This document shows, piece by piece, positions 6,991 through 22,386 of a stretch of 32,499 nt of DNA. A model generated the notes under the pieces. It did no database searches. It was not told the DNA's origin and saw only the letters and a list, made by a program, of their open reading frames with translations. The position numbers and the translations under genes were made by a program. The DNA lies in contig JAMDAM010000025.1 in the NCBI GenBank assembly GCA_023484805.1, positions 1 to 32,499 on the forward strand. Reading direction: 5' to 3'. The DNA is from Thermoplasmatota archaeon (lineage in GTDB: Archaea > Thermoplasmatota > Thermoplasmata > Thermoplasmatales > Thermoplasmataceae). Within the stretch, counting starts at the first letter, position 1. Every line of letters starts with the position of its first letter.

Positions 6991-7920
6991 TCATTCGCCG
7001 GAAAAAAGGTCCAGTATCCGGGATATTGAGACGTACTCAATCTTTCCTGCATGCATTCCCGCAAAGATCATGGATTTTCGCACGCCATGCGAAAGCCTTA
7101 CTGCCCTGCTGACCCTGTACCATTGATCGGTTCCGGCCATTACATGTATGAGATACTCCGCATGTTCTGACATGCTTTTCCGATATGCCCTGAAGTTTGC
7201 GCCATACTTGAAGCCGGTTCTCACTATTAGCTTCCTGCTGACCAGGTCCTCGTAAACGCCGTAAGCTGCGTCCCCGTCGGCATCACTATTTCCGGTTTCG
7301 CGCCCGAGGATGTGCCTTGCTTCCATATCCGTCAGCAGAACTTTGTCCGCAAATCTTGAACCCAGCCATTCCGATCCGGGTATTGGATCGAGGTAAAACC
7401 TGCCTCCTGCCTCATGCACAGATTCCTTGCCGGGCCATGAGTACAGGGTCTCCCCCACGGGATCCGCCCTGGCGGTTGCAAAAAGGGTGATGTCGCCCTC
7501 GTCGTCCATGGTTGAATAGAGGGATGGAGCGGTTACCGCCAGTTCCTCGAATGTGATCTCTGAATTCTCACCCTTGACCCTCAGGGGATGAGTTGCCTTC
7601 CTGTCATTCTTTTTCCCGAACATGAGGACCCTACCGTCTCTCCTGACCAGCATGCCCTTTGACTTGAGATAAAAATAAATCCTGAACGTGTCATAATCAT
7701 CCCTGTCCGTTATGAACGCATTCAGGATCGCAATTGTGCTCCGGTAATGGGCATTTTCAGGGACGATTCTTCCGGTGAAGTAGAGGAATAGGGCCTCATA
7801 GGGTTCAAGAATTAGGTTGTCATCAAGCACCCTGCCCACCCTGTATTTTCCGTTAAGGTAGGACGGGCTTCTGTCTCCCGGGATGTTAAAGACCAACGGG
7901 GTGCACACAGCCCTAGGCAT
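6991..7920 (-). CDS. endA: tRNA-splicing endonuclease with two fused repeats
   Basis: EndA cuts archaeal pre-tRNAs at the bulge-helix-bulge motif to release introns. The 309-residue protein is long for the single-unit type (about 180) and fits the tandem type known from Thermoplasma: a degenerate N-terminal repeat followed by a catalytic C-terminal repeat. In the latter I see GFKYGANFRAY, SEHAEYLIHV and GVRKSMIFAG, giving a likely triad of Tyr246, His253 and Lys282. I chose the ATG at 7920; the frame is open to 7959 but that part lies inside the upstream gene. The start overlaps the end of the small GTPase gene by 8 bases, so translation is probably coupled. Its natural substrate is visible here: the intron-bearing tRNA-Trp at 22246-22386. 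Confidence 0.85.
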   Translation of the reverse strand: MPRAVCTPLVFNIPGDRSPSYLNGKYRVGRVLDDNLILEPYEALFLYFTGRIVPENAHYRSTIAILNAFITDRDDYDTFRIYFYLKSKGMLVRRDGRVLMFGKKNDRKATHPLRVKGENSEITFEELAVTAPSLYSTMDDEGDITLFATARADPVGETLYSWPGKESVHEAGGRFYLDPIPGSEWLGSRFADKVLLTDMEARHILGRETGNSDADGDAAYGVYEDLVSRKLIVRTGFKYGANFRAYRKSMSEHAEYLIHVMAGTDQWYRVSRAVRLSHGVRKSMIFAGMHAGKIEYVSISRILDLFSGE

Positions 7921-21990: not shown

Positions 21991-22044
21991 GTTTCAATTA
22001 GAAGGACAAGGTAAATAAACTTTGGCTGGACTTTGAAAAAATAG

Positions 22045-22054
22045 TTATAAATAA
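22045..22054 (+). promoter_or_regulatory. TATA box of the rpl41e-tRNA-Trp unit
   Basis: TTATAAATAA is a good box A. Transcription should begin near 22072-22078, leaving a leader of about 60 bases before the TTG start of rpl41e. I see no second promoter between rpl41e and the tRNA, because no bases lie between them. Confidence 0.6.
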
Positions 22055-22137
22055 TCATAGGCAATATGGAGACACGCTTTATCTCGTATGAAGCAAGACT
22101 GCATGAAATTCAAGTAATCTGGATTTGGGGTGAAATA

Positions 22138-22245
22138 TTGAAGAGAAGTTCAAGGGACTGGAAGAAACGCGGCAATATGCGTTGGAAATGGCGCAAGAAA
22201 AGAATTAGAAGATTAAAGAGAGCGAGAAAAGCAAACAAGATGTAA
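22138..22245 (+). CDS. rpl41e: Ribosomal protein L41e
   Basis: A 35-residue, very basic peptide runs from [12 protein letters not shown] to KRARKANKM, with the core [15 protein letters not shown] that marks L41e, the smallest ribosomal protein. It forms one helix at the subunit interface. The TTG at 22138 is chosen because a strong GGTGA ribosome site (22129-22133) lies four bases before it and the product has the usual archaeal length. The ATG at 22177 would drop the conserved first 13 residues. An ATG at 22066 is in frame but probably lies upstream of the transcription start. The gene is too short for most gene callers. Its stop codon (22243-22245) touches the first base of the tRNA. Confidence 0.88.
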
Positions 22246-22386
22246 GGGCGCATGGGGTAGTCAGGTATCCTAACGGGCTCCAGTCAGGGTGTGATTAGCT
22301 ATGGGTCAACTGATCTTATGATGAGTGACTGGAACTATGAACCGGGAAGAGACCCGTAGATCTGGGTTCAAATCCCAGTGCGCCCA
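22246..22386 (+). tRNA. tRNA-Trp (CCA) with a 68-nt intron
   Basis: The exons fold into a clean cloverleaf. The acceptor stem is GGGCGCA (22246-22252) with TGCGCCC (22379-22385) and discriminator A. The D arm is GGGT-AGTCAGGTA-TCCT, with three pairs. The anticodon stem is ACGGG (22273-22277) with CCCGT (22353-22357). The T arm is CTGGG-TTCAAAT-CCCAG. The anticodon loop reads C-T-CCA-G before the intron, giving tryptophan. The 3' CCA is not encoded. The intron interrupts positions 37/38, the classic archaeal site; placing it one base earlier gives the same mature tRNA. The splice bulges read AG|T and AG|A around a four-pair helix (32-35 with 22346-22349) that contains one C-A mismatch, a slightly relaxed bulge-helix-bulge. 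Confidence 0.96.
22284..22351 (+). ncRNA. tRNA-Trp intron carrying a box C/D 2'-O-methylation guide
   Basis: The guide element occupies 22291-22340: C box GTGATTA (22291-22297), a 12-nt spacer, D' box CTGA (22310-22313), 4 nt, C' box ATGATGA (22318-22324), a 12-nt spacer, and D box ATGA (22337-22340). A three-pair stem, GGT (22288-22290) with ACC (22341-22343), closes it. Spacer 1 pairs over nine bases with 22351-22359 and puts G22305, fifth from D', opposite position 39. Spacer 2 pairs over seven bases with 22279-22285 and puts G22332, fifth from D, opposite C34. Intron-encoded guides for the same two positions are known in tRNA-Trp of other Euryarchaeota. The terminal boxes are degenerate but compensate each other (C-box base 6 U with D-box base 1 A). 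Confidence 0.9.

Follow-up and report, generated by a model that had tools for sequence, protein, structure and literature searches.

Introns of archaeal tRNA-Trp genes that double as box C/D guide RNAs for the tRNA that hosts them have been described from Haloferax and Pyrococcus (PMC2584109, PMC7994747), as the first-pass annotation of the present locus had noted. In Haloferax the guided products are Cm34 and Um39, and the same arrangement is reported for at least 29 archaea (PMC2584109). Deletion of the Haloferax intron abolishes both methylations, as reported in PMC11408192, which also describes in vitro action of the guide in trans; cells that have lost the intron show no growth defect under standard conditions (PMC11408192). 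Where box C/D RNAs are nested in tRNA-Trp introns, the median intron length is 65 nt (PMC4090602). The Pyrococcus intron guide is named sR50 (PMC7994747), and we infer from its guide sequence that it corresponds to the Rfam family sR3 (RF01133). For P. furiosus, snoRNAdb lists C39 of tRNA-Trp as a target, but methylation predicted at this residue went undetected among the tRNAs analysed (PMC7668247).

The intron considered here lies within a 32,499-nt stretch of DNA from a Thermoplasmatota archaeon (hereafter the window) and is an ordinary, conserved example of this known archaeal arrangement. As in Haloferax volcanii (PMC2584109), it is found at position 37/38 with a bulge-helix-bulge (BHB), holds a nested C/D-C′/D′ RNA with guides to C34 and residue 39, and contributes part of its own sequence to the pairing with the guides. 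The two differ in intron length (103 nt in H. volcanii, 68 nt here) and in residue 39 (U there, C here), and the modification has been demonstrated in H. volcanii only, whereas here it is predicted from sequence. The intron RNA would also be of the same RNP type as free-standing tRNA-targeting box C/D sRNAs such as Pyrococcus sR49 (tRNA-Met C34), with the N+5 rule applied to a wobble C; in contrast, sR49 is encoded outside its target tRNA and its guide matches tRNA-Met.

Results

Positions 22246–22386 of the window hold a tRNA-Trp(CCA) gene that is split by 68 intervening bases following nucleotide 37. The Rfam tRNA model (RF00005) matches this interval at 49.5 bits, treating the intron as inserted sequence, whereas ARAGORN, as run, called no tRNA at the locus because of the intron. 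The features of the window discussed below are as follows.

7033–7266, reverse strand: catalytic domain of the EndA tRNA-splicing endonuclease (PF01974, 73.1 bits, in a 323-aa open frame)
22138–22245, forward strand: rpl41e, 35 aa, TTG start, from sequence (Pfam Ribosomal_L41, 17.3 bits, below the cut-off of 22.3)
22246–22283, forward strand: tRNA-Trp(CCA) 5′ exon, nt 1–37 (RF00005 match and sequence)
22280–22282, forward strand: anticodon CCA; C34 (22280) is the predicted target of the D guide (opposite G22332, invariant in 68/68)
22284–22351, forward strand: 68-nt intron at canonical position 37/38 (relaxed BHB, fold and sequence)
22288–22290, forward strand: 5′ side of the terminal stem, GGU, adjoining the C/D k-turn (pairs with ACC at 22341–22343 in the MFE fold; compensatory changes in relatives)
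22291–22297, forward strand: box C, GUGAUUA (sequence; UGA core kept in relatives)
22298–22309, forward strand: D′ guide, GCUAUGGGUCAA, 12 nt, with nt 5 (G22305) opposite C39
22310–22313, forward strand: box D′, CUGA (invariant in the order-level alignment)
22318–22324, forward strand: box C′, AUGAUGA (UGAUGA invariant in the order-level alignment)
22325–22336, forward strand: D guide, GUGACUGGAACU, 12 nt, with nt 5 (G22332) opposite C34
22337–22340, forward strand: box D, AUGA, first base non-consensus (AUGA in 45/68 relatives, CUGA in 7, GUGA in 6)
22341–22343, forward strand: 3′ side of the terminal stem, ACC (MFE fold; changes on both sides in relatives)
22352–22386, forward strand: tRNA-Trp 3′ exon, nt 38–73 (RF00005); C39 (22353), present in 68/68, is the predicted target of the D′ guide

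The exon-intron boundaries form a BHB-type structure in which C32 pairs with intron G-3, U33 with A-4 and C35 with G-6, the BHB being relaxed by one mismatch in the central helix (C34·A-5). The whole precursor folds with z = -3.4. The intron is predicted to be removable through this relaxed BHB, and the EndA encoded in the window is the enzyme expected to excise it.

The stop codon of rpl41e ends at the base just before nucleotide 1 of tRNA-Trp, and the gap between the two genes is 0–3 nt in several genera and families. An archaeal TATA-box-like element, TTATAAATA (22042–22056), lies ∼85 bases upstream of rpl41e and no comparable element is obvious directly before tRNA-Trp, which suggests co-transcription; the two genes probably share one transcript. 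The promoter scan used was of the bacterial type and is uninformative for this archaeal locus. In one relative (G003, locus L003) rpl41e ends in a TAG stop codon that takes in G1 of tRNA-Trp itself, so that after RNase P processing the mRNA would end at its stop codon or lack part of it.

Within the intron, boxes C, D′, C′ and D follow one another with UGA cores and a terminal stem. These boxes, the two 12-nt spacers and the fifth-base pairs G22305–C39 and G22332–C34 are all present in the sequence where the first-pass annotation had placed them. Boxes C and D both depart from consensus (GUGAUUA against RUGAUGA, and AUGA against CUGA), as in most relatives. The D guide is complementary to U33-C34-C35-A36-G37 and intron nucleotides +1 to +3 over eight contiguous Watson-Crick pairs, with an A·C mismatch at C32. 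The D′ guide has an unbroken run of five Watson-Crick pairs reaching from intron -1 to C41, followed by a G·U pair at position 42.

The sR3 consensus holds the same guide cores (GGGUC before D′ and UGGA before D) and differs from the window's intron in box D (CUGA as opposed to AUGA). The window's intron aligns with RF01133 over its full length but reaches 21.1 bits, short of the gathering score (41 bits), and the intron of an alignable relative (L131) scores 47.6 bits, above it; for the window's intron we claim the mechanism class and not formal membership of the Rfam family.

A search of 41 genomes recovered an identical gene (100%) in the three remaining genomes of the genus, and genes with 82–96% identity throughout the family and in a neighbouring one (f3). 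In the order-level alignment of boxes and guides (23 distinct sequences, one orientation), CUGA of D′ and UGAUGA of C′ are preserved, as are the guide cores GGUC and ACUGGA; box D nearly always retains its UGA, and 91.3% of guide-target cells are paired, as against 17–38% when the alignment is slid by 1–3 columns. Changes on both sides are also found in the terminal stem, the BHB and the anticodon stem of relatives.

At the level of the class, a covariance model of the anticodon arm plus intron matched 190 of 300 Thermoplasmata genomes and missed 110, and 68 distinct pre-tRNA-Trp genes from 27 families were read. The fifth nucleotide of the D guide is G in all 68 and that of the D′ guide in 67, the exception being L097. 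Such a search had been proposed in the earlier annotation, which named introns of relatives without boxes and spacers as one case that would refute its reading. The reading was not refuted: boxes, spacers and both N+5 duplexes prove to be kept, with covariation where they vary, and there is a D guide in 68/68 and a D′ guide in 67/68 distinct introns. Its remark that residue 39 is C rather than U, with the site kept, is correct as a description, but C39 is nothing special, being invariant in the class (68/68) and already listed for P. furiosus, and we have dropped it as a novelty. Twenty-three genomes, picked from the model misses and the first search of relatives, were queried with the spliced exons. 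Eight gave tRNA-Trp genes (seven fully readable, one cut at a contig end), all of which carry the intron, with a D guide in every readable one; the remaining queried genomes yielded other tRNAs or contig ends at best, and there may be true losses in some genomes.

Two positions of the intron covary with the guides. Intron +2 and nucleotide 10 of the D guide are C-G in 26 precursors, T-A in 39, T-G in 2 and A-T in 1, and hence pairable in 68/68; intron -1 and nucleotide 3 of the D′ guide are G-C in 27, A-T in 27, T-A in 5 and G-T in 1, and unpaired in 8/68. Neither intron position survives in the mature tRNA, so it is the precursor against which the guides are maintained, and the covariation shows selection keeping them matched to it in its unspliced form. 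Both guides would thereby read across the splice junctions, in line with the inference, from Haloferax, that methylation comes before splicing (PMC2584109). The h′ helix (+2:-7) was considered as the source of the changes at intron +2; it may be a partial source, but leaves the matching change in the guide base unexplained.

Chance resemblance was also considered, namely that this is an ordinary spliced tRNA intron whose boxes and complementarities are fortuitous. The imperfect boxes C and D would fit such a reading, as would the frequency of single guide-like matches (0.04–0.4%) in 200,000 dinucleotide-preserving shuffles of the intron, of which 84 contained an equally good D guide and 798 an equally good D′ guide. 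However, no shuffle contained both, the arrangement is conserved across the class with compensatory changes, and the relative's intron noted above passes the sR3 threshold. Chance is refuted at the sequence level, and we give it practically no credence.

The proteins required are encoded by the host. The window's own genome, which is 71% complete, contains fibrillarin (187.7 bits), Nop5 (113.7), L7Ae (87.3), EndA (73.1) and RtcB (531.5), and all five are present in all four genomes of the genus.

Discussion

Our results make it highly likely that the pre-tRNA-Trp intron is a box C/D sRNA with two guides, for 2′-O-methylation of C34 and of C39, and the guide RNA very probably directs methyl groups to these positions of its own tRNA. 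This reading, put forward from the window alone, is now backed by class-wide conservation, covariation and the encoded proteins, from which we infer the methylation itself. It extends the textbook case of a tRNA intron that modifies its own host to the class Thermoplasmata.

In the proposed mechanism, L7Ae would bind the C/D and C′/D′ motifs, where Nop5 and fibrillarin would assemble. The D guide would span the 5′ splice junction, pairing from U33 to intron +3 and placing C34 for 2′-O-methylation, and the D′ guide would span the 3′ splice junction, pairing from intron -1 as far as about position 43 and placing C39. Since intron nucleotides take part in both duplexes, the substrate would be the unspliced precursor, probably another molecule acted upon in trans, as reported for Haloferax; EndA would then excise the intron and RtcB join the exons. 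The locus had been termed self-directed, which holds in that the tRNA species targets itself; action within the same molecule is not implied, and the published Haloferax in vitro work favours trans. It is conceivable, though we consider it unlikely, that guides lying on both junctions act as a checkpoint, masking the junctions and excluding the BHB fold so that splicing could not occur before both methylations.

The two guides are not equally constrained, and it may be asked whether only the D guide is active, with the D′ half serving mainly RNP architecture and C39 left unmethylated. The D guide is the stricter of the two (68/68), complementarity of the D′ guide outside its core is short and variable in the window's family, with a G·U or mismatch at position 42, and family f1 often has pairing interrupted at 41–42 and at intron -2; the undetected C39 methylation in P. 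furiosus (PMC7668247) points the same way. Against this, the fifth nucleotide of the D′ guide is G in 67/68, its third nucleotide covaries with the last intron base (G-C, A-T, T-A), which architecture alone would not need, and Um39 is real in Haloferax (PMC2584109). We therefore regard a D-only guide as rather improbable, and retain the dual guide as the preferred reading.

A wider role, in which the excised intron also guides methylation of C39 of other tRNAs in trans, for example elongator tRNA-Met(CAU), is suggested by the 3′ anticodon strand ACCCGUAG, which is identical in tRNA-Met and tRNA-Trp. A tRNA-Met(CAU)-like anticodon arm in genome G000, CTCATAACCCGTAG (C33:47414–47427, L171), can pair with nucleotides 4–7 of the D′ guide and beyond, and its ACCCGUAG stretch could be a secondary D′-guide target at C39. 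However, the match to tRNA-Met breaks at nucleotide 37, and the covariation of D′-guide nucleotide 3 with the last base of the tRNA-Trp intron indicates that selection tracks pre-tRNA-Trp. Such additional targeting seems to us very doubtful, and pre-tRNA-Trp itself remains the favoured target.

Every precursor recognised and fully read has kept the intron, though it is deletable in Haloferax, and what maintains it is an evolutionary question.

Variants within the class are also of note. In L097 (G048) the intron keeps the C34 D guide, with an A-T pair at +2/nt 10, and holds no recognisable D′ guide for C39. Genome G148 has two tRNA-Trp genes ∼1.8 kb apart (L145 and L146), one of which, with its D′ guide altered to GGUUA and its T arm changed, is possibly a decaying duplicate. 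Intron lengths in the class range from 64 to 172 nt, and most of the longer introns (∼91–172 nt; L116, L119, L111, L124, L128 and others) have an additional hairpin downstream of box D, ahead of the 3′ splice site; short introns are without it, and the hairpins have similar loops, GGGGUCGCUCCCC and GGAGUAGCUCUCC.
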